A stretch of DNA of 64,000 nucleotides, from positions 1-64,000 of the IMG/VR virus record IMGVR_UViG_3300042892_002528. The stretch is one strand, 5' to 3'. Within the stretch, counting starts at the first letter, position 1; each line of letters opens with the position of its first letter. Source of the stretch: a virus. The translations under genes were made by a program, and so were the position numbers. The notes under the pieces are model-generated. The model was not told the DNA's origin. It did no database searches and saw nothing but the letters and a program-made list of their open reading frames with translations. Shown piece by piece: positions 7,454 through 36,241 of the stretch.

Positions 7454-7909
7454 TTAAATCTCCGGATGCGGTGCTTGTTGAGGAGCAGGCTTACCATTAA
7501 TGTAAATAATGTTAGTACTAGGAGCGCTAGTTCCATTAAAACCTTGAGTAGTAGAAAATCCTGGATTAAATGTAGGTTCTATTTTTACTGGATTAGCTTT
7601 AGCATAAGTATTTGAATTTTCTTGTGCTTGTTTAATCATGTCGCGTTTCATGTCCATTTCTTCTTTGCTACCACCAGCTAACATAATTCCTGACAATGTA
7701 CCTGTTAAGAAAGTAGCAATTGGAATAATCATTTCAAAAAATTTCTGGTCAATAGGACTAATAGCGTTTAATGGCTGAGTAATAAAAATAATTGAGTATA
7801 GCACTACAAACACAATGCCAGTTAGCGTAAGCGCAAGACAAATGCCAATAAAGAATTTTAAGCGCGCCATTAGCTGATCTTCAGTATAGATAATTGGATT
7901 ACTTTCCAC
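7454..7909 (-). CDS. membrane protein with two TM segments (151 aa), holin candidate
   Basis: I choose the GTG at 7909 (protein begins V-E-S-N-P-I-I-Y-T-E-D-Q). It has GGAG 6 bases upstream and overlaps the previous stop by only 11 bases. The ATG at 7987 has no Shine-Dalgarno and would overlap the upstream gene by 89 bases. Two membrane segments follow (F-F-I-G-I-C-L-A-L-T-L-T-G-I-V-F-V-V-L-Y and I-I-P-I-A-T-F-L-T-G-T-L-S-G-I). A cytoplasm-like charged helix and a Pro/Gln/Asn-rich C-terminal tail come after. Larger than a usual holin. Lysis-region position suggests a holin or antiholin function, unproven. Confidence 0.6.
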   Translation of the reverse strand: MESNPIIYTEDQLMARLKFFIGICLALTLTGIVFVVLYSIIFITQPLNAISPIDQKFFEMIIPIATFLTGTLSGIMLAGGSKEEMDMKRDMIKQAQENSNTYAKANPVKIEPTFNPGFSTTQGFNGTSAPSTNIIYINGKPAPQQAPHPEI

Positions 7910-8204
7910 AGTTAGCTCCTTGTTTTTGTTGTACCACGCAAGCACCTGTTGGTGCAACTGATTGATTAAATGTTTGAGTTTGTCCATCTTTGGGAGGTCC
8001 TAATCTTGGATCACGTTGGCCTTTAAAAATATGCTCTGGACAAGTTCGGGTAACGTCACATACAGGTACTTTACAAAAATCTTTTTCCCAGTTTGCAGGG
8101 TCTTGACATGGGTATCGAAAGCTATCTTTACCAAAAAATGCTAAACCTACAGGTATTAACAATAGAGCTATCGCCCATTTAAATAATTTTAAATCATTGT
8201 GCAT
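7899..8204 (-). CDS. membrane-anchored, cysteine-containing protein (101 aa)
   Basis: A single N-terminal hydrophobic segment (W-A-I-A-L-L-L-I-P-V-G-L-A-F-F, about 10-24) is followed by a soluble domain with seven Cys (Y-P-C-Q-D, F-C-K-V-P-V-C-D, R-T-C-P, G-A-C-V, N-C-G-K). This is consistent with a periplasmic disulfide-containing domain. No family recognised. It lies in a coupled run of small membrane genes: its start directly follows the stop at 8205, and its end carries the ribosome site of the next gene. Confidence 0.6.
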   Translation of the reverse strand: MHNDLKLFKWAIALLLIPVGLAFFGKDSFRYPCQDPANWEKDFCKVPVCDVTRTCPEHIFKGQRDPRLGPPKDGQTQTFNQSVAPTGACVVQQKQGANCGK

Positions 8205-8354
8205 TTATAGTCCAATTTTTCCTAATAGTAAGTTAACGATTTTGTCTGATAGATCATCTGGTAAGAATTTTAAAAATCCTAAGAAGTATAGTGCTACACA
8301 TCCGTATACAAATATTTTTAAGCACATATCAAAGGTTTTTTGATACTCATTCAT
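8205..8354 (-). CDS. small single-TM protein (49 aa)
   Basis: The ATG at 8354 overlaps the upstream stop as ATGA, and TAA at 8207-8205 abuts the next ATG. The product begins MNEYQKTFDMC and has one hydrophobic segment (about 13-27, I-F-V-Y-G-C-V-A-L-Y-F-L-G-F), then a short acidic and amphipathic tail. Translational coupling on both sides supports it strongly as a gene. Function unknown; it lies in the lysis region. Confidence 0.7.
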   Translation of the reverse strand: MNEYQKTFDMCLKIFVYGCVALYFLGFLKFLPDDLSDKIVNLLLGKIGL

Positions 8355-8848
8355 CTGCCACACCTATTACCTGTTTGGCAATATTGCATTAGTTCGTACC
8401 CGCCAATAAACATTATAAATAAAACAAAAGCGGTTCCGCCAAGTATCATGGCCCATTCATTAAGCTCTTCTTCTTTTTGTTTACGCTTGCGTTCTTGCGC
8501 ATTAAAAAGTCTTATGTCATTAGCGTCATCAGCATCCATTTCTGCTTGGCGTGCTTTGATCTTGTTCCAAACATCAATTTTGCCTGTTTGCATAAATAGC
8601 ATTTTGAGTTCTTCTTCAAAAGCTCTGGCTTGTTCTAGTGCCATCTCAATTTGAAGGGCCGTGCCCATGTTGTTGCCTTTTTTACTACTTTTAGCTTCCA
8701 TTAAAGCTTTAGTAGCTGTACTCTTAGCATCAAACATTTTGCCAATCATTGGGGCCAATGACCCTAAATCGTTAGCAACTGCGCTTGCTTTTTTAACCAT
8801 TGAAATGGCTGATTGTATCCCCGCTAGTGCGGTCATCGGATCTATCAT
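8351..8848 (-). CDS. helical protein with C-terminal membrane segment (165 aa)
   Basis: N-terminal residues (D-P-M-T-A-L-A-G-I-Q-S-A-I) start a long, largely helical, alanine/lysine-rich region with a predicted coiled coil (about 60-130). A membrane segment follows at about 134-152 (I-L-G-G-T-A-F-V-L-F-I-M-F-I-G-G) and then a short tail with two Cys. This architecture recurs in small phage proteins of lysis or virion-internal regions; I cannot name the family. GGAG lies 6 bases before the ATG and the end overlaps the next start (ATGA). Confidence 0.6.
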   Translation of the reverse strand: MIDPMTALAGIQSAISMVKKASAVANDLGSLAPMIGKMFDAKSTATKALMEAKSSKKGNNMGTALQIEMALEQARAFEEELKMLFMQTGKIDVWNKIKARQAEMDADDANDIRLFNAQERKRKQKEEELNEWAMILGGTAFVLFIMFIGGYELMQYCQTGNRCGR

Positions 8849-8857
8849 ATTTATCTC

Positions 8858-8995
8858 CTATCGGCGCTTTTTACGCCATTCTAAACAAATTACTTTTCTT
8901 GAGTATACGTCTCCAGTCCATGCCCACCTAACACATTCATATTCGTCAGGTTTGGCATAACTTAATGTTATTGAAATTAGCAAAGCGGAAAGCAC
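8858..8995 (-). CDS. small secreted W/C-motif protein (45 aa)
   Basis: A short ORF starts at GTG 8995, with AGGAG 8 bases upstream inside the end of the endolysin gene, and ends at TAG 8858. An N-terminal hydrophobic signal (V-L-S-A-L-L-I-S-I-T-L-S-Y-A) is followed by E-C-V-R-W-A-W-T-G-D-V-Y and V-I-C-L-E-W-R. The C-x-x-W-x-W-T-G-D-V-Y ... V-x-C-L-E-W pattern is one I associate with small phage proteins beside lysis genes; that is recollection. The two Cys may form a periplasmic disulfide. Function unknown. Confidence 0.65.
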   Translation of the reverse strand: MLSALLISITLSYAKPDEYECVRWAWTGDVYSRKVICLEWRKKRR

Positions 8996-8998
8996 CGC

Positions 8999-9613
8999 TT
9001 AGGCTCCTAGTACATGCTTGGCATGTTCATAATGTTTTTTACGATCTTCTAGACCGATAGTACCGCCGTTGATACGTTTAGTTAGGGTTAAAATGTCGTC
9101 GGCATCTGCCCACTGATTTAATTTGTTTGTTTCCCAAAACCAGCACGCTGACTGTGCAGCACCTTCAAAGGTTTCCATATATTCCGAAGCTTCTTCAGGT
9201 GAAATTTCTAATGAACTAGCAAACCAAAAGTAGTTATCCTTGCCAGTTAACTGAATAAGACCGCGACCGCAGTAACGATAACCGTCTCCAGACTCTTCAG
9301 GACCATTACCCATTCTGTTGCAATATACTTTATTTGCGATTGCTTGGGGCTTGTTGGCAAACTGTGCTGCCATCTCGTCTGTTGGGAAATACTTAGGAAA
9401 AATTTTACGTAATGTGACTGCACGATAGTTTAAATTTTCTTTGATTGCACGAAATCCGCCCGACTCATGAGCACATTGCGCTAAAAATGCAGCCATACGT
9501 TGTGGAGTATTGATTTCGTAATCTGGTAATAGTTGTACTAAGGCTTTGTGCCAGTACTCTATATAAGGATTCTTTTCAACAATTTGCTTTAGTTGATCTA
9601 ATGTTAGTTCCAT
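8999..9613 (-). CDS. endolysin, glycoside hydrolase family 19 (chitinase/muramidase-like)
   Basis: A 204-residue GH19-type lysozyme that cleaves peptidoglycan glycan strands at the end of infection. Family signs are the catalytic Glu50 in C-A-H-E-S-G-G-F, the segment N-Y-R-A, the substrate-cleft motif Y-C-G-R-G-L-I-Q-L-T-G, and W-F-W-E near residue 160. No signal peptide or separate cell-wall-binding domain is present, so export would depend on a holin. It overlaps the o-spanin stop/start by one base and carries the ribosome site of the next small gene in its last codons. Confidence 0.93.
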   Translation of the reverse strand: MELTLDQLKQIVEKNPYIEYWHKALVQLLPDYEINTPQRMAAFLAQCAHESGGFRAIKENLNYRAVTLRKIFPKYFPTDEMAAQFANKPQAIANKVYCNRMGNGPEESGDGYRYCGRGLIQLTGKDNYFWFASSLEISPEEASEYMETFEGAAQSACWFWETNKLNQWADADDILTLTKRINGGTIGLEDRKKHYEHAKHVLGA

Positions 9614-9876
9614 TACTTTACGCTTTCATAAATAATTTTTTGTTCACGATACCAGCGCTGCCAAGCTTCTAGTTTAACAGCACACATATAGTATTCCGTG
9701 TAATTAACTGTTACAGTTTTTGCTACATCTGACAACTTAACCTCGTCTGCTAATTTTTGCAAGTTAGGGCAAGGTTCTTGTACTAGTGTACCAGGCGCTT
9801 GCGGAAACTTTGCTGTAATTGGAACAGTTGTACAAGCACCGAGTAGTAAAATTAGTGGGATTAATAAAAACTTCAT
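9613..9876 (-). CDS. o-spanin-type outer-membrane lipoprotein (Rz1-like)
   Basis: An 87-residue lipoprotein. The signal (M-K-F-L-L-I-P-L-I-L-L-L-G-A-C) ends in a lipobox L-G-A-C with Cys15 as the lipidated residue. The mature part is about 73 residues with three further Cys or aromatic-rich stretches, larger than lambda Rz1. It begins inside the end of the membrane/coiled-coil protein (ATGA), the arrangement of an i-spanin/o-spanin pair that fuses inner and outer membranes at the last lysis step. The o-spanin call comes from lipobox plus context. Confidence 0.85.
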   Translation of the reverse strand: MKFLLIPLILLLGACTTVPITAKFPQAPGTLVQEPCPNLQKLADEVKLSDVAKTVTVNYTEYYMCAVKLEAWQRWYREQKIIYESVK

Positions 9877-10292
9877 TTCTTTGGTGCCTCTGCTGCTTGA
9901 TTATGTACTACAACAAATTCTTTGGGAACAACACAATTAGCGTCAAACTTAACGACTTCACGATCTACATACTTAATTATGTCTTGACCACGTTGTTTTA
10001 CTATTTGAGTTTTTACAAGTGTTTTTTCCACAATCTCGCTATTAGCAGTTGCTGATTTAGCTTCTGCCTCAGCTACTTTTACCTCTAGATCTTTTATTTT
10101 AGCTAGCCATGCATCGTTGTTTGATATAGCACCTATCATGTAAACACTTATAACAACTGCTGCAACGCTTGCTAGTTGAATTAACTGTGCATTTGGCAGC
10201 AGTTTAACAAACTTAGTAACTAAAAATGCAGCTACGCCTGCTAATAGCAGTGCATAAAATATCCAGTTGGGTAAAAATTGTAATATCCACAT
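9873..10292 (-). CDS. i-spanin-type membrane coiled-coil protein (Rz-like)
   Basis: A 139-residue protein with two hydrophobic N-terminal segments (about 6-24 and 40-57), then a coiled coil rich in Ala/Glu/Lys (about 62-110). The C-terminus is C-V-V-P-K-E-F-V-V-V-H-N-Q-A-A, a pattern typical of i-spanin periplasmic ends. Classical Rz has one membrane segment, so the second is unusual. The stop overlaps the lipoprotein start by 4 bases, as expected for adjacent spanin genes. Confidence 0.8.
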   Translation of the reverse strand: MWILQFLPNWIFYALLLAGVAAFLVTKFVKLLPNAQLIQLASVAAVVISVYMIGAISNNDAWLAKIKDLEVKVAEAEAKSATANSEIVEKTLVKTQIVKQRGQDIIKYVDREVVKFDANCVVPKEFVVVHNQAAEAPKK

Positions 10293-10293
10293 A

Positions 10294-11340
10294 TTATTCC
10301 ATTAATTTAAGATTACTAAGTAATCGTGTATCACTAGGAGCAAACTCTAGTGCTTTCTTTATAAATTCTACAGCTTCTTCTTTAAAACCTAAGTTCCAAG
10401 CTGCAATAGAAGCATAATCATATGGTTTTTCAGTCCAAACACTTGGATCCATAGTGTACACTAATGCTTTATCTTTAATTGCTAGTGCTGATTTACACGC
10501 AGAGTAACAATCTAACCACATATTAAGCCTATAAGATGTTTCTGCTAAGCCTACCCAAGGCTCACGAGTATTAGGCGCTTCAGCAATAGCTAAACGGAAC
10601 ATCTTAATTGACATTTCCCAATTACCCAATTCTGAATAACATTTACCTAATAGTCTATAAGCATAGCAACGTTCGTTTACCCAGGTTGCTTCTGGCATTG
10701 CTAAATATTTATTAAGATAAATAATAGCTTCATCCCAATTACTGTAAAAAGTCAACTCTCGTGCGTGATAAAACGCATTACGAGGACAATGTGGATCTTC
10801 TGCAATAGCCAGTTTTAGTAATGGCATATACTGTCCACGTGACTTAGTATTGTCAGGATGATGGCTAACTAACAACATGTCAGTTTGCGCGTATATTTCT
10901 TTTGTGCGATTGTCTGGGCGAGGATATTCGTGAACTGGATGATGCCAGTGGTAGCCTGTTCTATGATGGATCTTTTCATAGAAAAAACTAATACCTTGAC
11001 CCCAGTCAAATTTATAACGAAGTCGAGTTGTTTCTGTTGTCCATACTCGTTCGATTTCTTCTCGCCAACCTGGCTCTAAGACTTCGTCTAAGTCTAGCGA
11101 AATGCACACGTCGTAATCCCCAGGGATTAAATTTAGTGCTGTATCGCGTGCTTTGTCAAATCGCCAAGGCTTAACTGAAATGTTGTATACCTCAGCACCA
11201 TATTTTTTGGCTTCAGCAACTGTGTTGTCTGTGGAGCCAGTATCCGCAATTAGGATAAGATCAGCATCTATTGCGGATTTACAAAAACGTTCAACAAATT
11301 GTTCTTCGTTTTTACTGATAGCGTAAACTGCTATTTTCAT
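10294..11340 (-). CDS. GT2-family glycosyltransferase with C-terminal TPR repeats
   Basis: A 348-residue protein. Residues 1-130 are a GT-A fold: A-I-S-K-N-E-E start, A-D-T-G-S-T-D-N-T nucleotide-sugar loop, and S-L-D-L-D-E-V-L-E-P-G-W carrying the metal-binding acidic motif. Residues about 180-345 look like tetratricopeptide repeats (A-F-Y-H-A-R-E, L-L-G-K-C-Y-S-E-L-G-N-W, A-L-E-F-A-P-S-D). This GT2-TPR architecture is known in bacteria and phages and usually adds sugars to proteins or surface glycans. Here it may glycosylate phage structural proteins or modify the host surface. It lies between the lysis and fibre genes; a weak promoter candidate precedes it. Confidence 0.88.
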   Translation of the reverse strand: MKIAVYAISKNEEQFVERFCKSAIDADLILIADTGSTDNTVAEAKKYGAEVYNISVKPWRFDKARDTALNLIPGDYDVCISLDLDEVLEPGWREEIERVWTTETTRLRYKFDWGQGISFFYEKIHHRTGYHWHHPVHEYPRPDNRTKEIYAQTDMLLVSHHPDNTKSRGQYMPLLKLAIAEDPHCPRNAFYHARELTFYSNWDEAIIYLNKYLAMPEATWVNERCYAYRLLGKCYSELGNWEMSIKMFRLAIAEAPNTREPWVGLAETSYRLNMWLDCYSACKSALAIKDKALVYTMDPSVWTEKPYDYASIAAWNLGFKEEAVEFIKKALEFAPSDTRLLSNLKLME

Positions 11341-17349: not shown

Positions 17350-18042
17350 CTATACTGAGATTTCAGGAAATAACTCTTTGTGTATGTACTCATGTACTTG
17401 ATCATCGTTGAATCCTAATGTTTTTAATACTCTTGGAGTATGCGGATTACATTTTTGTTGCTGACAATAATAATTTTGCTTGTCAGTAAAATTGTGTTGT
17501 GCTACCATATCTTCATATTTTAACGCTGGGCGATATTTTGATATACTATCTAAGTAGTAAATAAGCGACTTCCTAGAAATCTCTAATAATACCGCTAGTT
17601 CAAAATCAGTATTAATATTACCGGCAGCAACCATACGATTGCTAAATATATTTCTTGCCCACTCGGGTAATTCACGAGGTTTTGCCCACGAAGTTGGTTC
17701 TACTAACTCTTGAAAATACTTGCATAAGGGATGTTCTGGGTCGCCTATAGGTGAAAAATCTAAAAACGCACCTGTAATTTTATTTGTACCAGCTATAATA
17801 TCAAACCCGTATATAGGTGCTGTATCATATGTATGTGGAAATATACACAAGTGCATCATATACAATTTTTTGGATTCCGATACATCAATAACGTCTAAGT
17901 TGGCTCTGCGAACCCAGGCACTTGAAAAATTCTTAGTGTACCATTCTGAGGTGATTTCGCTTGGCGAAGAAAAAGCCCTTGCAGCAAGAATTGCTTCCAA
18001 CTCCGCTGCATGAGCTTTTAATTTATTGAATATTGTGCTCAT
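17350..18042 (-). CDS. ferredoxin-dependent bilin reductase (PcyA/PebS/PcyX/HY2 family)
   Basis: A 230-residue protein, the usual length for the family. It contains the signature block P-I-Y-G-F-D-I-I-A-G (76-85) followed by K-I-T-G-A-F-L-D-F-S-P-I-G-D (88-101), where Asp95 is the candidate for the conserved substrate-protonating Asp. It also has the preceding M-H-L-C-I-F-P (63-69) and a C-terminal segment Y-C-Q-Q-Q-K-C-N-P-H-T-P-R-V-L followed by L-F-P-E-I. FDBRs reduce biliverdin IX-alpha with electrons from ferredoxin to phycobilins. The gene overlaps the heme oxygenase gene by 20 bases, so substrate supply and use are coupled. Which bilin it makes cannot be told from sequence by eye. It ends the metabolic island; a fibre gene follows. 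Confidence 0.85.
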   Translation of the reverse strand: MSTIFNKLKAHAAELEAILAARAFSSPSEITSEWYTKNFSSAWVRRANLDVIDVSESKKLYMMHLCIFPHTYDTAPIYGFDIIAGTNKITGAFLDFSPIGDPEHPLCKYFQELVEPTSWAKPRELPEWARNIFSNRMVAAGNINTDFELAVLLEISRKSLIYYLDSISKYRPALKYEDMVAQHNFTDKQNYYCQQQKCNPHTPRVLKTLGFNDDQVHEYIHKELFPEISV

Positions 18043-18562
18043 TGGCTAACTCTGTAAATAGTTCGATAGCAAAGGCAAAACACTCATTTGCTTCCGCAGC
18101 CATGTTAACGTCTAGTTTTTGACGTAATGCACTAATCAACTCACTACGATTGCTAAATTCGTACATAGTAGCTGCGCCAGGAACAACTTTCTTAATCATC
18201 TGACCACCGTACAGGTCGCCCATATGACGAACATATAAGTGAGCTAAAATCTGATTATCACTTAAATTTCTATTGGTTATGTAATTGATATATTTTAATG
18301 TACTAGGATACAATGTTGTTTTGCATTTTGGTAAATTATCAAAATCAATGCCAATTTGCTCACTACGCTCTATGCCATTTAAGCCGTTTAAAAGGTTTTT
18401 TCTTTTAGCCACTGCTTCAAGAGAATAATAAATTGCTTGCTGATTATATAAAAAGTCAGCATAAACATTTTCAGGAATATTACCACCTAATAACAGCTTG
18501 GTAAAAGGATGAGCTTCTGCAAGTTCATGGTTATCGTGGGTTAATTCTTTTAGAGTGGTCAT
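18023..18562 (-). CDS. ho1: heme oxygenase (biliverdin-forming)
   Basis: A 179-residue all-helical heme oxygenase. His12 is the predicted axial heme ligand, in H-x-x-A-E-x-x-x-F (His12, Ala15, Glu16, Phe20) with the same spacing as human HO-1 His25/Ala28/Glu29/Phe33. The distal-helix signature is V-R-H-M-G-D-L-Y-G-G-Q (111-121; Gly115, Asp116, Gly119, Gly120). The enzyme opens heme to biliverdin, CO and Fe2+. It is shorter than typical bacterial or cyanophage enzymes (over 200 residues), mainly at the C-terminus. It overlaps the HldD-like gene by 32 bases and the bilin reductase by 20, forming one translational unit. Confidence 0.9.
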   Translation of the reverse strand: MTTLKELTHDNHELAEAHPFTKLLLGGNIPENVYADFLYNQQAIYYSLEAVAKRKNLLNGLNGIERSEQIGIDFDNLPKCKTTLYPSTLKYINYITNRNLSDNQILAHLYVRHMGDLYGGQMIKKVVPGAATMYEFSNRSELISALRQKLDVNMAAEANECFAFAIELFTELANEHNIQ

Positions 18563-19316
18563 AAACTTTGTTGGTTTTAGTCATGTCAGCACAAGTATAC
18601 TTTTGATAACTTGCTTTTAACTGTTCGGGCATTGGTATTGTTTGTATAGGAACACCAAAAATTTCAGCTACTTCTAAGAAGCTCTGTGTAGTGCCAGTAC
18701 CAATGTTAAATATGCCTGATTCTTGACTGTTTAAAAAAGCCAGATGAGTAGCAATTACTTGCTCAACTGGTACAAAATCTCTGCGGTATTCGTGACTGTT
18801 TTCAAACACTTTTATTTCGCCAAACTCATTAGCTTGTTTTGCAAATTGGTAGTGTGGGCTAGCTTGTGAGCCTTTATGATTTTCACCTAAACCATATACA
18901 TTAAAGTATCTGAATCCTTGTACTACGTTACCACCTTGGTGTTGTTGGTGATAGCGTTCAAACATATACTTTGACCAAGCGTATGCATTACGTGGGTCTA
19001 CAGGTGCAGTTTCTGAAAAGTCCGTTCCTAAACCGTATACGCTGGCGCTACTTGAGTACTGCAAGTTTACTCCGTAAACTTTACAAGCAGCAAAAAGTTG
19101 ACGACTAAAATCATAATTTTGTCGCATAATTTTGTCAACATCACGCTCTGTGGTTGAGCTGATTCCACCAATGTGAATAACCCAGTCTTGTTCCATAACA
19201 CTAGGCATATTGCCGTCATCCCACTCAAAAACGCTAATCTCGTGGTTAGCATTTTCTAAGGCTTTGAGCATATTTTTGCCGATAAAGCCTTTATGCCCTG
19301 TTAGTAAAATTTTCAT
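18531..19316 (-). CDS. hldD: NAD-dependent sugar epimerase, HldD/RfaD-like
   Basis: A 261-residue extended SDR. The nucleotide motif is G-H-K-G-F-I-G (7-13); the catalytic elements are the Ser cluster S-S-S-A-S-V-Y-G (88-95) and Tyr112-x-x-x-Lys116 in Y-A-W-S-K. R-Y-F-N-V-Y-G-L-G-E-N-H-K-G (136-149) is the block typical of ADP-L-glycero-D-manno-heptose 6-epimerase. It is about 50 residues shorter than E. coli HldD. In LPS biosynthesis HldD epimerises ADP-D-heptose to the L form. Neighbouring kinase and nucleotidyltransferase genes support this substrate, but another NDP-sugar is possible. Start overlaps the HAD gene stop (ATGA). Confidence 0.8.
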   Translation of the reverse strand: MKILLTGHKGFIGKNMLKALENANHEISVFEWDDGNMPSVMEQDWVIHIGGISSTTERDVDKIMRQNYDFSRQLFAACKVYGVNLQYSSSASVYGLGTDFSETAPVDPRNAYAWSKYMFERYHQQHQGGNVVQGFRYFNVYGLGENHKGSQASPHYQFAKQANEFGEIKVFENSHEYRRDFVPVEQVIATHLAFLNSQESGIFNIGTGTTQSFLEVAEIFGVPIQTIPMPEQLKASYQKYTCADMTKTNKVYDHSKRINPR

Positions 19317-19606
19317 TTAAAATATGTGTCTGCGTTAATTGCTTTGTCATCAATCCAAATATCGTACGCAGGTTTTCCTGTTTTAGCAGAGGTGTATTTA
19401 CAACCCCAGCTTGTTAATTGTTTAAGTGTTAAAGGCAACCAGTCAATTCCACTGTTGCTACCACGTGCTGTCCAATAATGTATTTCGTGTCCAGCATCGT
19501 ATAATTCATTAATTTTTAGAATACGATTTGGTAGGGGCTGACTATTTTCATAATCGTTACCTTGAGTTTCACAAATAGTATTGTCAATGTCTACAATATA
19601 TCTCAT
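19313..19606 (-). CDS. small HAD-type phosphatase (97 aa)
   Basis: The Asp nucleophile motif is V-D-I-D-N-T-I-C (Asp6 and Asp8), motif II is in Y-W-T-A-R-G-S, and the metal-binding C-terminal motif is D-I-W-I-D-D-K-A. At 97 residues it is a minimal HAD core without a cap, like the small phosphatases of capsule/LPS gene clusters. In the ADP-heptose pathway a HAD enzyme (GmhB) removes the 7-phosphate between kinase and nucleotidyltransferase steps; this protein could fill that slot but is much shorter than GmhB. Start and stop overlap the neighbours by 4 bases each. Confidence 0.78.
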   Translation of the reverse strand: MRYIVDIDNTICETQGNDYENSQPLPNRILKINELYDAGHEIHYWTARGSNSGIDWLPLTLKQLTSWGCKYTSAKTGKPAYDIWIDDKAINADTYFK

Positions 19607-19959
19607 TGTTGGCTGTCACCTTTGCCAACACGATAATTATCTTCTACTGAATCTGGTGTTGAAACTTCAATAATTGTGCCTGCTTCTAAGCAAATTAACT
19701 GATGCGGTAAAAGTACTGGATTATGCCAAGTATCGCCAACACTAAGTTCGTGCTCTGTTTGCGAAGCATCAGCTGTGTTAATAACTACGACTTTAAACTT
19801 GCCACTAAGCACATACCAAGTTTCATCTTTGTGGGCATGAAAGTGCATTGAAAATTTAGCATTTTGATTAAACTGCAGTAGTTTACCACAATACTTGTCG
19901 TTGGTAGCCCAAATATTTTCTGAACCCCAGCCTTTTTCCACAAAACCTTCAAGCCTCAT
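19603..19959 (-). CDS. cupin-domain protein, sugar-phosphate isomerase-like (118 aa)
   Basis: A single cupin barrel with motif 1 H-F-H-A-H-K-D-E-T-W-Y-V-L-S-G-K (metal ligands His39, His41, Glu46) and motif 2 L-P-H-Q-L (His86). It resembles the C-terminal cupin of type II phosphomannose isomerase/mannose-1-P guanylyltransferase and WbuC-like proteins. Embedded in a sugar nucleotide cassette, it probably isomerises or binds a sugar phosphate. The heptose pathway needs a sedoheptulose-7-P isomerase (GmhA) that is otherwise missing here. I only note the gap; a cupin is not a known GmhA. Overlaps the kinase gene by 11 bases. Confidence 0.75.
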   Translation of the reverse strand: MRLEGFVEKGWGSENIWATNDKYCGKLLQFNQNAKFSMHFHAHKDETWYVLSGKFKVVVINTADASQTEHELSVGDTWHNPVLLPHQLICLEAGTIIEVSTPDSVEDNYRVGKGDSQQ

Positions 19960-20734
19960 TTATTTCTTTCAGTGTAGGTGCGTATACGCCCATGTGTTTT
20001 ACTGTTATTGCAGCTGCTTTGTTAGCAAACTCAATAGATTTAGCCATGTCTTTGGTATTTAAAAACTCGTAAGTTAGTGCTGCCAGAAACGTGTCGCCTG
20101 CTCCGCAAACATCTGCTACTTCTACAACTGGTGCAGGGTAAACAACATCATTATATCGTGTACCATTTTTACCAAGTGTTACAATTAACTGACTAGGAAT
20201 TGTTTTAGCTAATGAGTTTTCTAGGCTATTGATTTTTACAAATGTTCCTTCAAACCTAGCTAAATCTGTTTTCTTAGTGTCAACAAATATAGGGCAAGAG
20301 AACATCCTTATTAGTTGTTCAACTAGTTCATAACTAACGCAGCCTTTGTTGTAGTCACTAATAACTACCGCATCAAAAATAGGAGGCAGCGGGTACTCAA
20401 TCTCAAAAGGCCCGCCAGTAGCGTCTTGATCTAAACGCATAATATGTTGGTTAGAACGAGTGTCTATAAATCTAGTTTTTACGCTACCTTTTATAGTTAA
20501 TAGCTGTACCGTACAACCTAAAGATTTTAAATTTTCTTCTACATTTCCTGCCATACCTCTACGAGTTTCTTCGTGCTCAGGTACAAACACAGGAACTGGA
20601 GCTTCAGGGCTCAGCCTATCAATGTGACCATATACGTATTGGTCAACACAAGTGTCGCCTACTAATAAAATCTTCCAAGATTTGGGTACTTGAGAAAGGT
20701 GTTGTTCTATTATAGAATCTAAGTTGCTTTGCAT
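19949..20734 (-). CDS. PfkB-family sugar kinase, HldE/HldA-like (heptose kinase)
   Basis: A 261-residue ribokinase-fold protein. The N-terminal block L-L-V-G-D-T-C-V-D-Q-Y-V-Y-G followed by R-L-S-P-E-A-P-V-P-V-F is characteristic of the HldE kinase domain. G-M-A-G-N-V replaces the usual G-G-A-A-N-V. The PfkB signature 2 is D-V-C-G-A-G-D-T-F near residue 215. The reaction would be D-glycero-D-manno-heptose 7-phosphate to the 1,7-bisphosphate. I prefer ATG 20734 over the in-frame TTG 12 bases upstream; either way the first 30 codons overlap the nucleotidyltransferase gene in another frame. About 50 residues shorter than the E. coli domain. Confidence 0.85.
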   Translation of the reverse strand: MQSNLDSIIEQHLSQVPKSWKILLVGDTCVDQYVYGHIDRLSPEAPVPVFVPEHEETRRGMAGNVEENLKSLGCTVQLLTIKGSVKTRFIDTRSNQHIMRLDQDATGGPFEIEYPLPPIFDAVVISDYNKGCVSYELVEQLIRMFSCPIFVDTKKTDLARFEGTFVKINSLENSLAKTIPSQLIVTLGKNGTRYNDVVYPAPVVEVADVCGAGDTFLAALTYEFLNTKDMAKSIEFANKAAAITVKHMGVYAPTLKEINEA

Positions 20735-21050
20735 ATTCCGAACCAATTACGGTTTTATCTTTATAATCTGACCCTACAATCATTATATCAGGTCTAAGTA
20801 TTTTTACTGTTTGTGTTAATTCTATGTCGCTATCAAAAATCACTACTTCATCTACTGCTTTTAGATTTTCTAATAATTTCATTCTATTATATTGTGGGTT
20901 GACAGGTCTATCCAAACCCTTTTTGCTGGCGACTCGGCTGTCCGAATCTATTGCCACCAGTAAAAAGTCACCTAGACTTTTTGCGTAGTTCAGCAAGTCT
21001 AGGTGTCCTGGATGTAAAACGTCAAAAGTGCCGTTTACAAATATTTTCAT
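20643..21050 (-). CDS. heptose-1-phosphate nucleotidyltransferase, HldE C-terminal/HldC-like
   Basis: A 135-residue cytidylyltransferase-fold protein. The nucleotide motif is G-T-F-D-V-L-H-P-G-H (His-x-Gly-His), then R-P-V-N-P-Q-Y-N-R and R-P-D-I-M-I-V-G-S-D-Y, and the C-terminal S-S-T-Q-I-L of the family. The inferred reaction is ATP plus D-beta-D-heptose 1-phosphate to ADP-heptose. A glycerol-3-phosphate cytidylyltransferase-like activity is the alternative. In E. coli this domain is the C-terminal half of HldE after the kinase. Here the order is reversed and the genes are split, with a 92-base out-of-frame overlap. The start overlaps the carbamoyltransferase stop (ATGA). Confidence 0.85.
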   Translation of the reverse strand: MKIFVNGTFDVLHPGHLDLLNYAKSLGDFLLVAIDSDSRVASKKGLDRPVNPQYNRMKLLENLKAVDEVVIFDSDIELTQTVKILRPDIMIVGSDYKDKTVIGSEYAKQLRFYNRTTPFSSTQILEDFISRRHLC

Positions 21051-22846
21051 TTTTTAATTTTAACTGTTAAAAGCTTATTATACTCTGGTAAATACAAATA
21101 GTCAATACCAGATTTACTCAAGGTCCACAGAGCATCCTCTAGGGTTTCCACCAGAGGTTCGCCTCCCAAATTAAAACTTGTGTTAAAAATAATGGGAACA
21201 CCCGTTTTATCTTTAAATGCTTTAATTACATCATAGTAATGTGGATTTTCTTCTCGTGTAACTGTTTGAATACGGCAAGTACCATCAACGTGAATAATTG
21301 AAGGAATTTTTTCTTCGATACCAGGCTGACAATTAACAGCATACATCATGTGTGGGCTGTTTGGCATACCACGAAGATCAAACCATTCGTGAACATCTTC
21401 TTCTAAAATAGAACCTGCAAAAGGTCTAAAGTATTCGCGATGTTTAATTTCATTTACAAAATCTTTGCCGTCTGGGAACGTAGGGTCAAACATCAAACTA
21501 CGATTGCCTAGTGCACGAGGACCATTCTCTGAACGACCTTGGAACATTGCAACAATGTTCTTTTCTGTCATTAAGTTAATTACGTCTTCTTTAGTAGCAT
21601 CACTAATTTCTGCATCATACTCAGCAGCAATGCGCTCAATGTCTTCTTCAGAGTAGTTATATTGTGGGCCTAAATAAATTTCACGTGGGTGTTTAGCATT
21701 AACTGCATCAGGCTCTGTCATATGATAGAATACCAGTGCAGCGCCAATAGCAGTACCGCCATCATTAGATACTGGCTCAACATACAGTTCAATACCACGT
21801 TTAGATAGCTCTGTTAAGTAAAAGTAATTTGCTACACAATTTAAAGCGTAACCGCCACTTAATACTACTTTATCTTTACCAGTAGTTTCTACAGCTTTTA
21901 GGATAAGATTAAGAACTTGTTCTTGAGTCTGTGTTTGACAAGCATAAGCAAGATCTCTACGATTTTGTAGTAGTGTAGGATTATCAATATGAAATGCTGA
22001 ACATAGTTCAGGATATGCCATATGACTAACTTCTGCTCCATTAGGCATTTGTGGTACAACTACATTAGCATTTGAAAGAGGTACTATAGTACCAGAGCTA
22101 AATAGCTTTGGAATATTATCGTTGGGTTTACCATATGGAAATAATCCCATAGTCTTTCCAGCTTCAATACCTTCAAAGCCACAGTATTCTGTAACAGCTT
22201 CATAAACTTTAGTAATTCCTGCATGTCCGCTGAATACTACTTCATGTGTGCCTTCTTCACCTAGTTTCTCGCTAGACTCTTCTAAGCTATGATATACAGG
22301 TATGGCCATTCTAGAAGCGTAGTGTTTATACAGCGTTTTAAAAGGTTTTGTATATTCACAGTCAAAAATAGACTCTACTTCCCATAACACAATAGGTTCA
22401 TTTTTATAAACAGCTGGCATGGCACTACCAGCACCATCTACAATAACTGCTACAGCATCTTCAAAGCCGCTACGATAAAATGCAGCAGCAGCATGAATTT
22501 TGTGGTGTTGACTACTAAGATCAATTACTTGAGGATGTCCCTCAGGCGTTCCTAGTTTACCGTCAATTAAACCTAATTTTCGTGCAAGTCCTGTATAAAC
22601 AAAATCACCGTAAAAATCTACTTTGCCACAAGTTTCTACTAAGCTTTGAGTATGTGAAACTACAATAAAGTCTACTTTTTTAGTATATTCTTTTACTTTA
22701 ATCATAGCAGCATAGGGACCACCATCATACTTAGCTCTACTTAATCGTTCTTCTTCGATAGCAAATACAATTTTACCATCTTTTAATAAACATACTCCTG
22801 CGTTATGTCCACGACTAATTCCAAGTATATATCCTGTTTTTTCCAT
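21047..22846 (-). CDS. carbamoyltransferase (NodU/CmcH/TobZ family)
   Basis: A 599-residue two-domain enzyme transferring carbamoyl from carbamoyl phosphate, via carbamoyl-AMP, to a hydroxyl group. The N-terminal ASKHA/TsaD-like domain shows I-S-R-G-H-N-A-G-V, the metal-binding H-H-K-I-H-A-A-A-A-F-Y near residue 115 and V-D-G-A-G-S-A. The C-terminal domain carries F-Q-G-R-S-E-N-G-P-R-A-L-G-N-R-S and later F-N-T-S-F-N-L-G-G-E-P-L-V. The length is full for the family. Known relatives carbamoylate sugars, antibiotics and Nod factors. Beside heptose enzymes and a GT9 transferase, a carbamoylated sugar on LPS or on a phage component is the natural inference. A DNA-base substrate cannot be excluded. 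Confidence 0.93.
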   Translation of the reverse strand: MEKTGYILGISRGHNAGVCLLKDGKIVFAIEEERLSRAKYDGGPYAAMIKVKEYTKKVDFIVVSHTQSLVETCGKVDFYGDFVYTGLARKLGLIDGKLGTPEGHPQVIDLSSQHHKIHAAAAFYRSGFEDAVAVIVDGAGSAMPAVYKNEPIVLWEVESIFDCEYTKPFKTLYKHYASRMAIPVYHSLEESSEKLGEEGTHEVVFSGHAGITKVYEAVTEYCGFEGIEAGKTMGLFPYGKPNDNIPKLFSSGTIVPLSNANVVVPQMPNGAEVSHMAYPELCSAFHIDNPTLLQNRRDLAYACQTQTQEQVLNLILKAVETTGKDKVVLSGGYALNCVANYFYLTELSKRGIELYVEPVSNDGGTAIGAALVFYHMTEPDAVNAKHPREIYLGPQYNYSEEDIERIAAEYDAEISDATKEDVINLMTEKNIVAMFQGRSENGPRALGNRSLMFDPTFPDGKDFVNEIKHREYFRPFAGSILEEDVHEWFDLRGMPNSPHMMYAVNCQPGIEEKIPSIIHVDGTCRIQTVTREENPHYYDVIKAFKDKTGVPIIFNTSFNLGGEPLVETLEDALWTLSKSGIDYLYLPEYNKLLTVKIKK

Positions 22847-23887
22847 TTATGCCTCTTTAGCAATTACATCTTCAATCAAACTAGTAGGCTTTTTTGCAAA
22901 GTTTGGCATACTTTGAGTTTGAGTGTTTATTGGTTTAACGTTTGTTGTAAAGTCTTTTTTGGCTTTACTAACACCTAGTTTATTTTCTACACTTTTAATA
23001 ATTTTAGTGTAAGTATCAGTACTAAGAATCATTGAATCTTCATTGGTTCTTTCAGCGTCTATATCATGAGTTAACCTGATTGGAGTATATGTTCTTGTTG
23101 CTTTTCCATTATCAATAATAGTAAAGTTTTTGTTGTCTGGATAAGATATATTTTCAGGAAATGTTGAACCTATTACGACTGTAGTAGGCTTATCTAAAGC
23201 ATGAGCAAAATGTTGCCCTACACTATCACATCCTAAAAAGTAGTCACAGGCTTTAATAATTCCTGCCCATTTAACTAAATCTATATTTTCTGGAATTGCT
23301 GCTGGTATATCCTTGTCTGTAGGCACTTTAAAAGGTAACATTAATATTACCGCGTAATTTTTGCTTAAATCAGTTACTAGTTTAATAGTATCGTTTAATT
23401 CAAAACTTCTACCAGTAGTATCAAATACAAAATTGCCTTCTAGTTTTACACCGCTTCCAAACGGCTGTACAACTACGCATTTTTCTTTACCAAGTTGCGC
23501 TTTTACTTGATTTACTAAATTATACCCATATACTTGTTCAGCTTTGCCAAGTTCTAAATTGATCGGTTTAGAACTTGGTACGCTTTCTAAGTTGTTTATA
23601 ATTTTGTCAAATGCTTGAATAAGATTAGCTTTTTGGTTAAAATAAGCATTTAATCTATAAGGTTCAGGACATTCAATTTCTCTATCTTTAAGTTTTTGTT
23701 CAAAAAGATTTTTATGGGCAACATGATATACGTTATTTCTTAAAGTTGGACTGAGTAAAAATAACTCAGGCCATGCTTCGGCAATAATAACTACATCTTT
23801 ATCGATATTATTTTTATAGTACTCTAGAGCAGGAAGTGCACATAGTACTCTTCCTGCTCCCCCATTTATTGCAAATGCTTTTTTCAT
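22847..23887 (-). CDS. GT9-like (heptosyltransferase-type) glycosyltransferase
   Basis: A 346-residue GT-B protein. Residues about 140-160 give V-V-V-Q-P-F-G-S-G after a first Rossmann half (I-N-G-G-A-G-R-V-L-C-A-L-P-A). The second half shows D-Y-F-L-G-C-D-S-V-G-Q-H-F-A-H-A-L followed by P-T-T-V-V-I-G, the pattern of the donor-binding site of ADP-heptose:LPS heptosyltransferases. The C-terminal 50 residues are Lys/Thr/Asn-rich and probably disordered. Together with the kinase, nucleotidyltransferase and epimerase genes it would complete a pathway that makes and transfers ADP-heptose. Adjacent to the carbamoyltransferase with no gap. Confidence 0.8.
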   Translation of the reverse strand: MKKAFAINGGAGRVLCALPALEYYKNNIDKDVVIIAEAWPELFLLSPTLRNNVYHVAHKNLFEQKLKDREIECPEPYRLNAYFNQKANLIQAFDKIINNLESVPSSKPINLELGKAEQVYGYNLVNQVKAQLGKEKCVVVQPFGSGVKLEGNFVFDTTGRSFELNDTIKLVTDLSKNYAVILMLPFKVPTDKDIPAAIPENIDLVKWAGIIKACDYFLGCDSVGQHFAHALDKPTTVVIGSTFPENISYPDNKNFTIIDNGKATRTYTPIRLTHDIDAERTNEDSMILSTDTYTKIIKSVENKLGVSKAKKDFTTNVKPINTQTQSMPNFAKKPTSLIEDVIAKEA

Positions 23888-30140: not shown

Positions 30141-31598
30141 TTATCCTAACGCTATTGCATAGACGGTTGCTGCATTTGTAGCAACTTCTTCTATCGATTG
30201 AGCACTTACTGAGTCACCTAATAGCTCTCGGACAATTATTTGAGCTCCACTATTTAGTGTCGGGGAAGTAATTGTTAAAGTAGTTCCAGAAACAGTATAA
30301 TCAGTAGTAGGTCTTATTACTACACCATTAACTACCACAAAAATAGTATTAGCAGTTAGTCCAGCATTAATTGTAAAAGTATTTGTACTTCCATTTGCCG
30401 TAAAAGATTCTGTTACCATGCTGTAAGGAGTAGTACCTACTGGACCAGTTGGTCCTTGAGCACCTTGTACTCCTTGAATACCTTGTGGCCCTTGTAATCC
30501 TGTTGCTCCTTGTAGTCCTATTGGTCCTGTAGGGCCTACTATTGTTGAAGCAGCCCCTGTAGGGCCTTGAAGACCTTGAGGTCCTGTTGCGCCTGTATCG
30601 CCTATAAGACCTTGAGGTCCTGGAATTATTGATGCAGGACCTTGAGGGCCTGTTGGACCATCACCAAGCATTTCTCTAATTACAATTTGACTTGCAGGAC
30701 CTGGAGTTACTGTAAATCCTAAATTAGTACCAAGAACTGTATAGTCTGCACCTGGTCTTAATATTGTATTATTAACAATTACTAATAAATTATTAACACT
30801 AAGATTTGGACCTATAGCAAATGTAGCTGTAGTACCGTCCCCTGTATAAGTTTTAGTAGTAATTATAAAGGGGAATCCGTTACCTATAGGTCCTTGTATA
30901 CCTTGGTCACCTTTGACACCTTGAGTACCTTGAGTACCCTGTGGACCTGTAGGTCCTTGAAAACCTTGAAGACCTTGAGGACCCTGGATACCTTGAGCTC
31001 CCTGAGGACCTTGTGCTCCCTGAATACCTGTTCTAGCAAAGGTAATAAGTATATCTTCAGAATTTACAAAGGGAGTATTACTGCTTCCACTAACAAAAGA
31101 ACAACCTATATTGAAGAAACCTTGCTCTTCGGAAATTGAAGTTATTGTAAATAATCCAAATACTGAAAGATTAGACTTCTTAGAAATTCTAAAGTGACCT
31201 TTTATAGAGGCAGAAGAATTGTTAATTCCTCTTACGTATTCTTGAATATCTGACGAACTATCATCTAGATCATCAATTCGCAGTATTGTTGCGAGATTGA
31301 GAGAAGCATTATTGAATTTTAACTTTCCTGGTCCAGGATCACTATTTGCTACACTAGTATCAAATGTATAATCAAATGATGCACCACCAAAGTTACCGTC
31401 ATTACCTTGTACACCTTGTGCTCCCGTGGGACCTATTGCTCCTGAAGAATATGGCAAGGAGTTCCAAGCGGATACTCCGTTACCAATCTTAAACTTTTCT
31501 GTGTCTAATTCTACACAAAGCTCACCTTCTACAAGAACAGGATTAACACTAGCCCACTGTGCCGCGGTGCCGCGTCTTAGTTGAACGTGAATTGCCAT
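30141..31598 (-). CDS. collagen-like tail fibre (485 aa)
   Basis: The N-terminal domain ([12 protein letters not shown], then G-E-L-C-V-E-L-D-T, then F-K-I-G-N-G) is the attachment domain common at the base of phage tail fibres. Two collagen regions (about 190-240 and 325-385) each lead into a beta module with the [13 protein letters not shown] pattern or a close variant, ending R-E-L-L-G-D or R-E-M-L-G-D. These modules are shared with the 1547-residue fibre next door. A trimeric rod is expected. The start overlaps the previous stop (TAATG). Confidence 0.85.
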
Positions 31599-34500
31599 TA
31601 AATTACTCCTCCCCCATCAATTAAGGGTAAACCACCATAAACAGAATCAGGACGTCCGCCGTCTAAATTGATTCCTTCGAGTGTACTTGTTAGTGTTAAA
31701 CTTTTTGGACTTGTTGCGTTATTAGTATTAAGTATAATACCCGGTCCTGCAACAAATTGTAACGTTGATTGTCCTGTTGCTACTAAACTTGTTTGCCCAT
31801 TAACTGCTAAAGTGCTAAATGCGTCAGATAGACCCCCACCACCACCACCACCTGCTAGTGCGTTTAGAGTACCATCTTCAGTTATTGTTAAATTATTACC
31901 AACTTTAATACCGCCTAAGGCAGTTGTAGTTGCTGGTGAAAGTGTTGCTGTGCCGTTTTGACCGGCAGGTCCTTGGGCACCTGTAGGTCCCGTAGTACCT
32001 ACTCCTGTAGCACCTGTAGGCCCAGTTAAACCTGTAGCACCTGTAGGTCCAGTTAAACCTGTAGCACCCGTAGGTCCTGCTACCGTTGAATCTAAACCAT
32101 TTGCACCTTGTGCACCTGTTGGTCCTACAATACCTTGAGCACCTGTTGGTCCTGTATTACCTTGAACACCTGTTGGACCCGCTATTGTTGAATCAGCACC
32201 TGTAGGTCCTGCAATACCTTGCGAACCAGTGGGTCCTTGAATACCTTGTGAACCAGTGGGGCCTGTAGTACCTTGAACACCTTGTGAACCAGTAGGTCCT
32301 GCAACTGTTGAGTCAGCACCTGTAGGACCTGTAATACCTTGTGAGCCCGTAGGACCTGCAGTACCTTGATCGCCCTGGATACCTTGAATTCCTTGTGCAC
32401 CTGTTGGACCTGCAGTACCTTGTATACCTTGAGCACCTGCGAGACCCGTAATACCTTGATCGCCTTGTGCACCTTGAATACCTTGAATACCTTGTGAGCC
32501 AGTAGGACCTGTAGCACCTTGTGACCCTGTAGGTCCTGCAACGCCTTGTAAGCCAGTAGGACCTGCAACTGTTGAGTCAGCACCTGTAGGACCTTGAATA
32601 CCTTGAATACCTTGTAGACCTTGAGGACCTTGTAGTCCGCTTGCACCACTTAAATCTGTTGTATAAGTATAGTTTGTACCATTCCACAAGTACAATCGTG
32701 CATTGTCTGTGTCGCTAACGTTTCCTGTATCAATAACTGCGAACTGACCTGCTACAATTCCTGTAGGAGCTGTGTCTGCAGTTAATGCAGCAACACTATC
32801 ATAAATTTTTGCAATTGTAAAACCAAGACCTGTAGAACCAGTAGGGCCTGTGACACCTTGAATACCTTGTGTACCTTGTGTACCTTGTATACCTTGAAGA
32901 CCTGTCGGCCCTGTTGCTCCTGCAGTACCTTGATTGCCTGTAGGACCTGCAACACCTTGAGTACCTGTAGGTCCCTGTATACCTTGAATACCTTGAATAC
33001 CTTGAGTACCCTGAATACCTTGAGCACCTGCAGGACCTGCTACTGTTGATGCAGCTCCTTGAATACCTTGAATACCTTGTGCACCTGTTGGCCCTGTAGG
33101 ACCTGTAGCGCCATAACCAATACTTGTACCACCAACAGATAAAAATCCACCACTAACACTAATTGGCGTACCGCCTAGGTCAATAGTATCAGCAGCAAAG
33201 TAACCAGTTTTCCAACGTTTTGTTGGAGAACCAATATTATATACTTGATCTAATGCAGGTATAATATGGCTACTAACGTTAGTTAAGTCAATTGAGGGGC
33301 CTGTAGGACCTGTTGGGCCATCACCAATCATTTGTCTAACAACAATTTCTTCACCAGTAAAAGGTGCTGCTGTAAACGTTAGTGTTGTTCCGCTTAGTGT
33401 ATAATCTGTTATTGGTTTTAATACTAAACCATTAGAAATAACTATTATACTGTCAACAGTATATCCGCTATCAATAGTAAAATTAGTAGTACTGCTATCA
33501 CCTGTATAAGTTTTAGTAGTAATTATAAAAGGGAATCCGTTACCTGTGGGTCCTGTTACACCTTGAATACCCTGAATACCTTGAATACCTTGAGCACCAG
33601 TAGGTCCTACAATACCTTGTATACCTTGTGACCCTGTAGGTCCTGCAACTGTTGATGCGGCTCCTGTAGGTCCTACAATACCTTGTGTACCTGTAGGACC
33701 TGTAGGACCTGCTACTGTTGATGCAACTCCTGTAGGTCCTTGTGTACCTTGTGTACCTTGAGGACCTGTAGGACCGTCACCAATCATTTGTCTAACAACA
33801 ATTTCTTCACCAGTAAAAGGTGCTGCTGTAAACGTTAGTGTTGTTCCGCTTAGTGTATAATCTGTTATTGGTTTTAATACTAAACCATTAGAAATAACTA
33901 TTATACTGTCAACAGTATATCCGCTATCAATAGTAAAATTAGTAGTACTGCTATCACCTGTATAAGTTTTAGTAGTAATTATAAAAGGGAATCCGTTACC
34001 TATAGGTCCTTGAATACCTTGTGAGCCCTGAATACCTTGAATACCTTGTGACCCTGTAGGTCCTGCAACGCCTTGTAAGCCTGTTGACCCTGTAGCACCT
34101 GTTGGGCCTACTACTGTTGATGCAGCCCCTGTAGGTCCTTGATCACCTGTTGGACCTGTAACACCTTGAATACCTTGTCCACCTGTAGGTCCTGTAATAC
34201 CTTGAATACCTTGTATTCCTTGAGCACCTGTAGGGCCTGTAACACCTTGAATTCCTTGAATTCCTTGAACACCTTGAATTCCTTGAGTACCTGTGGGGCC
34301 TACAACACCTTGAATACCTTGATCGCCTTGTACACCTGTTGGTCCTGTAACACCTTGTATTCCTTGATCGCCTTGTGCACCTGTTGGTCCTGTAACACCT
34401 TGAACACCTTGTATACCTGTTGGTCCTGTAACACCTTGAACACCTTGTGCACCTGTTGGTCCTGTAACACCTTGTATACCTTGATCACCTTGTATACCTG

Positions 34501-36241
34501 TTGGTCCTACAACACCTTGAACACCTTGTGCACCTGTTGGTCCTGTAACACCTTGAATACCTTGAATACCTTGTATTCCTTGATCGCCTTGTGCACCTGT
34601 TGGGCCTGTAACACCTTGAATACCCTGAATACCTTGGGCACCTGTTGGGCCTGTTACTGTTGATGCAGCTCCTTGAATACCTTGTACACCTGTAGGTCCT
34701 TGAGGACCCTGTAGTCCACTAGCACCGCTAAGGTCTGTTGTGTATGTATATGTTGTGCCACTCCAAAGATACAGTTTTGAATCATCTGGATTCTCTACAT
34801 TACCTGTATCAATAATTGCGAATTGTCCTGCTACAATTCCGGTTGGTGCAGTATCAGCTACTAAAGCAGCGACACTATCATAAATTTTTGCAATTGCAAA
34901 ACCAAGACCAGTAGAACCAGTAGGGCCTGTGATACCTTGTATACCTTGTATACCTTGATCACCTGTTGGGCCTGTTGGGCCTGTAACACCTTGTATACCT
35001 TGATCACCTGTTGGGCCTGTAACACCTTGAATTCCTTGAATTCCTGTTGGGCCTGTAACACCTTGTATACCTTGATCACCTGTTGGGCCTGTAACACCTT
35101 GTATTCCCTGAGCACCTGTAGGTCCTGTAACACCTTGAATACCTTGAATACCTTGAATTCCTTGAATTCCTTGATCACCTGTTGGGCCTGTAACACCTTG
35201 AATTCCTTGAATTCCTTGAATTCCTGTTGGGCCTACAACACCTTGTATTCCTTGATCACCTGTTGGGCCTACAATACCTTGTATTCCCTGAGCACCTGTA
35301 GGTCCTGTAACACCTTGAATACCTTGAATACCCTGAATTCCTTGAATTCCTTGATCACCTGTTGGGCCTACAATACCTTGTATTCCCTGAGCACCTGTTG
35401 GACCTACAATACCTTGTATTCCTTGATCACCTGTTGGGCCTACAATACCTTGTATTCCCTGAGCACCTGTTGGACCTACAATACCTTGTATTCCTTGAAT
35501 TCCTGTTGGACCTGTAACACCTTGTATACCTTGTATACCTTGTATTCCTTGATCACCTGTTGGGCCTACAACACCTTGAATTCCTTGATCACCTGTTGGG
35601 CCTACAACACCTTGAATTCCTTGAATTCCTGTGGGGCCCGTAACACCTTGAATACCTTGAACACCTTGAACACCTGTTGGGCCTGCAACTGTTGAATCAG
35701 CACCTGTTGGACCTTGGGCACCTGTTGGACCTACAACAGTAGATGCAGCACCTGTAGGCCCTACATCTCCATATCCAGATATTTCTCTGATTACTACCTG
35801 CAATCCTGCTGGAGGAGCAGTATTAAATATTACATTACTATTTAATACTGCATAATCAGTAGTAGATTGGGCAATTCCGCCCATAAAAACTAAAACATTA
35901 CTAGCACCTAGACCACTGCTAATTGCAAAAGTAACATTTGATCCGTCTGCTATATACTGTCTTGTAGTTGCGCTAAAAGGAATATTTCCGCTATTATTAC
36001 TATTAATCCATTCAGTACCAGTATACTGTAGTGATTGTCCTACTACTGGATTTACAATATTTACGTCTAGTAAATCATCAAGTCTAAGTATGTCTTTAAA
36101 ATATTTAACTGAGTTGTTAGATGCTTTAAAATATATTTTGCCATCTGCATAGTTAATGGCTAACTCGCCATAGTCGAGATCACCAGCAAGTGGGACTTTG
36201 TCCACTACTGACGATTTCTTAAGAATAATCTTATTTGCCAT
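31598..36241 (-). CDS. giant collagen-like tail fibre (1547 aa)
   Basis: Base domain: N-terminal [14 protein letters not shown], then [15 protein letters not shown]. The bulk is collagen-like triplets (G-P-T-G, Q-G-I-Q-G, V-G-P-T-G) in five or more blocks, interrupted by beta modules. Two copies are of the [14 protein letters not shown] module (nearly identical), two of the I-A-K-I-Y ... D-L-S-G-A-S-G module, and one contains [15 protein letters not shown]. The C-terminus has a Gly run and a beta domain. If all triplets form a triple helix, the rod would be on the order of a few hundred nanometres (inference). AGGG lies 6 bases before the ATG. Confidence 0.88.
33321..33545. repeat. 225-bp exact direct repeat, copy 1
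   Basis: Identical base for base to 33777-34001 (offset 456). It encodes the [14 protein letters not shown] beta module of the giant fibre. The flanks are only collagen-type low complexity, so the copied unit is the module itself. Confidence 0.95.
33777..34001. repeat. 225-bp exact direct repeat, copy 2
   Basis: Second copy of the repeat at 33321-33545. Perfect identity, including synonymous positions, implies recent duplication or ongoing gene conversion. Confidence 0.95.
34000..35740. repeat. collagen-coding low-complexity tandem repeat
   Basis: Degenerate tandem array of 9- and 27-base units encoding G-P-T-G, Q-G-I-Q-G and V-G/T-G on the minus strand, broken by one beta module near 34710-34920. 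Unit order varies in blocks, a pattern expected from slippage and unequal recombination. Further, shorter arrays of the same type lie at 31960-32630, 32840-33120 and 14240-14680. Confidence 0.85.

Follow-up and report, generated by a model that had tools for sequence, protein, structure and literature searches.

Ferredoxin-dependent bilin reductases (FDBRs) are known as phage auxiliary genes from the PebS and PcyA enzymes of cyanophages. A further type, PcyX, has been described as confined to viruses (literature including PMC11480375), and its representative in the PDB, PcyX_EBK42635 (5owg), was recovered from a viral metagenome, its source being an uncultured marine virus. The SAR11 phage Mosig EXVC030M (MT647606), which is in culture, has a heme oxygenase (HO) gene followed by an overlapping FDBR gene. 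HO genes with PcyA/X-type reductase genes, partly assayed, have also been reported from phages assigned to methanotrophs, and the CB_2 phage, whose putative host is a non-photosynthetic methanotroph, encodes vHemO, vPcyA, and vAlaS; the authors call the purpose of phage bilin genes enigmatic (PMC11480375). Bilin cassettes in phages of non-photosynthetic bacteria are thus known already from Mosig and CB_2, and what the original prediction had presented as a surprise has precedents.

Here, we analyzed a window of 64,000 nucleotides (positions 1 to 64000 of a linear, 71,053-bp IMG/VR virus record) in which an HO gene overlaps an FDBR gene. We consider it likely that the two form an auxiliary metabolic cassette converting heme via biliverdin to phycoerythrobilin (PEB) in a probably non-cyanobacterial host, and we tentatively place heme turnover first among its possible roles.

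The heme oxygenase and bilin reductase genes

Both genes are on the minus strand. The HO gene (vHemO; 179 aa) occupies positions 18023..18562 and the PcyX-type FDBR gene (230 aa) positions 17350..18042, so that they overlap by 20 nt, with the FDBR start inside the HO gene. Both reading frames were confirmed at these positions with the motifs originally reported, and their assignment to the HO and FDBR families was upheld by Pfam, PDB matches, AlphaFold2 models searched with Foldseek, and an FDBR tree. The reductase matched PF05996 at E=2.6e-20 (73.5 bits versus a curated cut-off of 31), placing the 230-aa protein inside the FDBR family, and the HO matched PF01126 at E=1.1e-16 (61.7 bits versus a curated cut-off of 23). 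AlphaFold2 models built with viral alignments (pLDDT 88.9 for the reductase and 96.2 for the HO) recovered the FDBR and HO folds. The top Foldseek matches were exclusively FDBRs (PcyA and 5owg) for the reductase model, which has the alpha/beta/alpha FDBR fold, and exclusively HOs (HmuO/HO-1, TM about 0.8) for the HO model. Sequence, structure models, and tree are concordant; the pair is genuine, and both of its genes are intact. The pairing of the two genes was likewise borne out, both by the overlap here and by 76 viral loci that carry the pair.

The top PDB match of the reductase was PcyX_EBK42635 (1e-49), with PcyA second (2.4e-11). In a tree of 41 FDBRs, sampled outside the alphaproteobacterial AX-clade PcyA (Bradyrhizobium) and the CB_2 PcyA and with PebS and the outgroup marked as long-branched, the window reductase fell in a 100/100 clade with 5owg, the pelagiphage Mosig, and 26 more viral sequences, separate from PcyA, PebA, PebB, and PebS. 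Judged by its sequence and its place in this tree, the reductase is a PcyX rather than a PcyA, PebA, PebB, or PebS, in agreement with the earlier suggestion of PcyX as the closest named type. PDB and tree alignments located the codons (minus strand) of Asp50 (17893..17895; Asp55 in PcyX and Glu76 in PcyA), His64 (17851..17853; His88 in PcyA), and Asp81 (17800..17802; Asp105 in PcyA and Asp86 in PcyX). This D-H-D set is kept in 78/78 viral reductases (64 distinct), Asp50 included, and the catalytic Glu76 of PcyA is absent from the window reductase. Asp95, which the original prediction had singled out, is indeed conserved in all FDBRs, but the equivalent of the catalytic Asp is Asp81. The phycocyanobilin (PCB) product of the CB_2 enzyme has been explained by its missing Asp55; because the window enzyme has the Asp55 equivalent, the same rule (PMC11480375) predicts PEB as its product, an outcome that its PcyX-type residues and clade membership would also imply.

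A genome scan, limited to two exact peptide patterns, was in keeping with a virus-only distribution of PcyX; it returned two matches, both of them jumbo-phage-like contigs, and a bacterial source of PcyX was rejected within the reach of these patterns. Among 385 alphaproteobacterial genomes, two had an FDBR above the cut-off, one being a phage contig. The alphaproteobacterial genome G334 encodes two distant FDBR-family proteins (L314 and L317), above or near the cut-off, that are possibly pre-PcyA or RCCR-like.

In the PDB, the HO matched cyanobacterial HOs, including Synechocystis HO1 (1we1) at 2.7e-8, and also Leptospira and animal HOs. In these alignments, His12 (codon 18527..18529, minus strand) falls at the position of the proximal heme ligand (His17 in Synechocystis HO1 and His20 in HmuO), and this residue is invariant across the viral alignment. 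The distal-helix motif G-D-L-Y-G-G-Q was placed by PDB and viral alignments (Asp116-Leu-Tyr118, 18209..18217, minus strand). Its Asp116 aligns with the catalytic distal Asp and is kept in 76/76 viral HOs, and Tyr118 replaces the Ser of the cellular-HO signature GD[LM]SGG. At the Ser position, 58 of the 76 viral HOs have Tyr, 17 have Phe, and only that of Mosig has Ser; Ser is also retained in the HOs of the jumbo-like contigs L111 and L112. We know of no requirement for this Ser in HO activity. The HO is short, as had been remarked, at ~30 residues below cellular HOs. Its predicted reaction yields biliverdin IXα, CO, and Fe2+ from heme, with a regiospecificity that is uncertain because of the ~30 missing residues and the Tyr in place of the distal-motif Ser.

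Phage lineage, host, and genomic setting

Terminase and capsid sequences relate the phage to the T5-like siphophages. The terminase (TerL; L093, within the final 7 kb of the record) has 49% identity to Vibrio T5-like phages, and the major capsid protein (MCP) has about 30% identity to T5-like phages. A class II RNR shares up to 69% identity with other aquatic phages, including roseophages, and no tRNA genes, which could have hinted at a host, were found in the window. Large collagen-repeat tail-fibre-like proteins are encoded at positions 31598-36241 and 30141-31598, one with an Mtd (major tropism determinant) N-terminal domain. In a near relative, G001 (128 kb), the reductase is 91% identical and sugar-cassette genes are up to 97% identical to those of the window. 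The best matches of the IscU of G001 were at 83 to 87% in a sample of non-alphaproteobacterial Pseudomonadota and at 79% in an alphaproteobacterial sample. The genomes with these best matches may be Burkholderiales-like; a comparison of their HscB proteins with a plasmid collection gave no close relative with a name. Besides this IscU/NifU-type Fe-S scaffold, which is full length, G001 (L095:1725-2111; also L094/L099) encodes Hsp20, ThyX, and a membrane protein of the Bax inhibitor-1 family.

No Photo_RC genes were found in the 71-kb record and 12 relatives (13 records), which upholds the original observation that photosynthesis genes are missing. Phycobiliprotein (Phycobilisome), phytochrome (PHY), ferredoxin, and ALA-synthase genes were each absent from 17 phage records. 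Phage-encoded ferredoxin, phytochrome, phycobiliprotein, and photosystem proteins were accordingly rejected as partners within these sets, as was a three-gene alaS cassette. The T5-like terminase and capsid, the lack of Photo_RC, Phycobilisome, and PHY genes in these records, and the IscU of G001 support the proposal of a non-cyanobacterial host; a Gram-negative bacterium outside the cyanobacteria is the probable host, perhaps, going by that IscU, a beta- or gammaproteobacterium.

Relatives of the pair were found in 76 IMG/VR loci at 40 to 95% identity. Where both gene ends were present, HO was directly upstream of the reductase, overlapping it in 69/75 loci, within 50 nt in 4, and separated by 559 nt in 2. 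The carriers are T5-like and T4-like phages and also jumbo-phage-like contigs. In the window lineage, the pair has tail-fibre genes on one side and a GH19-like endolysin block on the other (21 to 23 of 63 non-identical loci, from neighbour clusters), and in a second set of loci, which includes Mosig, it adjoins T4-like neck genes. The corresponding lysis-like block of the window (8999..10292, minus strand), downstream of the pair, comprises a GH19-like endolysin (8999-9613, minus strand; PF00182 match weak at 2.9e-5, slightly below the cut-off), an 87-aa ORF with lipoprotein-like relatives, and a 139-aa membrane ORF. Upstream is an optional sugar cassette (18531..23887, minus strand), identified by Pfam and common to only some relatives, with an epimerase, a 97-aa ORF, a cupin, a PfkB kinase, a cytidylyltransferase, a carbamoyltransferase, and a weak GT9-like ORF. 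Its genes occur in just 8 to 19 of the 74 carrier loci with flanks, and the originally suggested link between the pair and an LPS-sugar cassette was therefore rejected as a general association. The pair is not universal among relatives sharing its marker genes; FDBR was present in 4 of 26 further long records chosen by neighbouring marker genes (at least 4, given fragments).

Two GTDB MAG contigs in bacterial bins, L111 (335 kb, from a MAG named Neomarinimicrobiota; 7474-10591) and L112 (7080-10438), look like jumbo phage. Both have consecutive genes for Hsp20, ClpS, HO, a nitrilase-like protein, and PcyX, the nitrilase-like gene lying between HO and PcyX, and both also encode a GMP reductase; L112 has an additional 2OG-oxygenase-like ORF.

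Both genes of the pair are under purifying selection, with dN/dS values, where dS was unsaturated, of about 0.05 to 0.10 for the reductase and 0.11 to 0.24 for the HO. The two diverge discordantly. Between the window and L001, the reductases are 95% identical (dS 0.57) and the HOs 55% (dS 1.9), whereas between the window and L017/L022, the reductases are 81 to 82% identical (dS 1.3 to 1.6) and the HOs 85% (dS 0.5 to 0.6). HO alleles are therefore swapped without their reductase, and although the genes overlap, this suggests recombination close to the HO/PcyX junction.

Proposed pathway and alternative readings

In the pathway that we propose, the HO, with host reductant, would open host heme to biliverdin IXα, releasing CO and Fe2+, and the PcyX-type reductase would use four electrons from host ferredoxin to reduce biliverdin to PEB. 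Since the phage records contain no ferredoxin gene, the host must provide the electrons; these enzyme activities and the use of host ferredoxin are predictions from sequence. Heme turnover during infection would free iron, and PcyX would pull the reaction by removing biliverdin. The original prediction had offered a bacteriophytochrome, iron release, and an antioxidant function as possible purposes, and all three stay candidates. We place this iron/heme turnover first among the possible roles, as a tentative and weakly held choice, followed by an effect on a host phytochrome and then by an unrecognized cyanobacterial host. A wider iron theme via IscU was rejected as inconsistent, because only 1 of 17 records (G001) has IscU and a second (G005) a partial match.

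If the target were a host bacteriophytochrome, loading with PEB instead of biliverdin would make it non-photoswitching and blind the sensor during infection. Phytochrome-PEB adducts are fluorescent and lack photoactivity, as this reading would have it, but in bacteriophytochromes that bind biliverdin the chromophore is attached through another cysteine, and PEB may not be accepted. The PcyA product of the CB_2 phage does assemble with phytochrome (PMC11480375); set against the phytochrome gene found in 0/17 phage records, this leaves such an effect unlikely, if still conceivable. With a cyanobacterial host, PEB would sustain phycobilisomes, as proposed for cyanophage HO/PebS. FDBRs do occur in cyanophages, PEB is a chromophore of phycobiliproteins, and psbA is absent from some cyanophages, which would excuse its absence here. 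However, Photo_RC was found in 0/13 records and a phycobiliprotein gene in 0/17, the head and packaging genes are T5-like, the close relative G001 has a proteobacterial-type IscU, and the single cultured carrier in the PcyX clade, Mosig, infects SAR11, all of which makes this host decidedly unlikely.

A different product is also conceivable, namely PCB formed by PcyA activity like that of the CB_2 phage enzyme. The CB_2 PcyA is positioned between PcyX and PcyA (PMC11480375), and the two types are not distinguished by fold alone in Foldseek. Yet the CB_2 enzyme lacks the PcyX-specific Asp55, the equivalent of which (Asp50) is present here and in 78/78 viral relatives, and the 100/100 PcyX clade includes the window reductase; we regard PCB formation as very unlikely. 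The short HO and its highly variable alleles might suggest decaying passengers without function, a reading made highly improbable by the low dN/dS of both genes, the invariant catalytic residues, and the intact frames in almost all 76 loci. Our preferred reading remains the heme-to-PEB cassette. We speculate further, and with considerable doubt, that it is a phage-only bilin pathway with a distinct type of HO, by which phages of heterotrophic freshwater beta- or gammaproteobacteria reprogram heme, iron, or phytochrome sensing; if so, the aromatic distal-helix residue (Tyr/Phe) would give an HO with different heme chemistry or a different partner.

Comparison with described phage bilin genes

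We found no report of an HO-PcyX pair in T5-like phages in the open-licence literature. What is new is that the cassette occurs in a T5-like background and broadly across IMG/VR, together with the Tyr/Phe motif of the HO and the mosaicism between HO and FDBR. The cassette is spread over unrelated phage backgrounds (T5-like, T4-like, and jumbo-like). Because the hosts of T5-like phages are often culturable, the question of why phages of non-photosynthetic hosts make bilin could become testable.

The window resembles Mosig in its gene order, overlap, and PcyX clade. In contrast, its FDBR and HO are only 44% and 35% identical to those of Mosig, which is a T4-like phage with the pair adjoining neck genes and 2OG-Fe(II) oxygenases and with an HO that retains Ser (GDLSGG). 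With PcyX_EBK42635, the window reductase has the Asp55/His/Asp86 set in common and is 45 to 50% identical over about 195 residues. The CB_2 phage likewise combines HO with an FDBR in a putative non-photosynthetic host, but its reductase is a true PcyA (PCB) without Asp55 and with alaS alongside (PMC11480375), a gene that the window lacks. The cyanophage PebS and PcyA share the FDBR family but belong to other FDBR clades and to phages of cyanobacterial hosts, and in PcyA the residue equivalent to Asp50 is Glu. Known before from isolated T4-like cases of marine origin, the HO-PcyX cassette now emerges as a conserved component of a T5-like lineage that is widespread.
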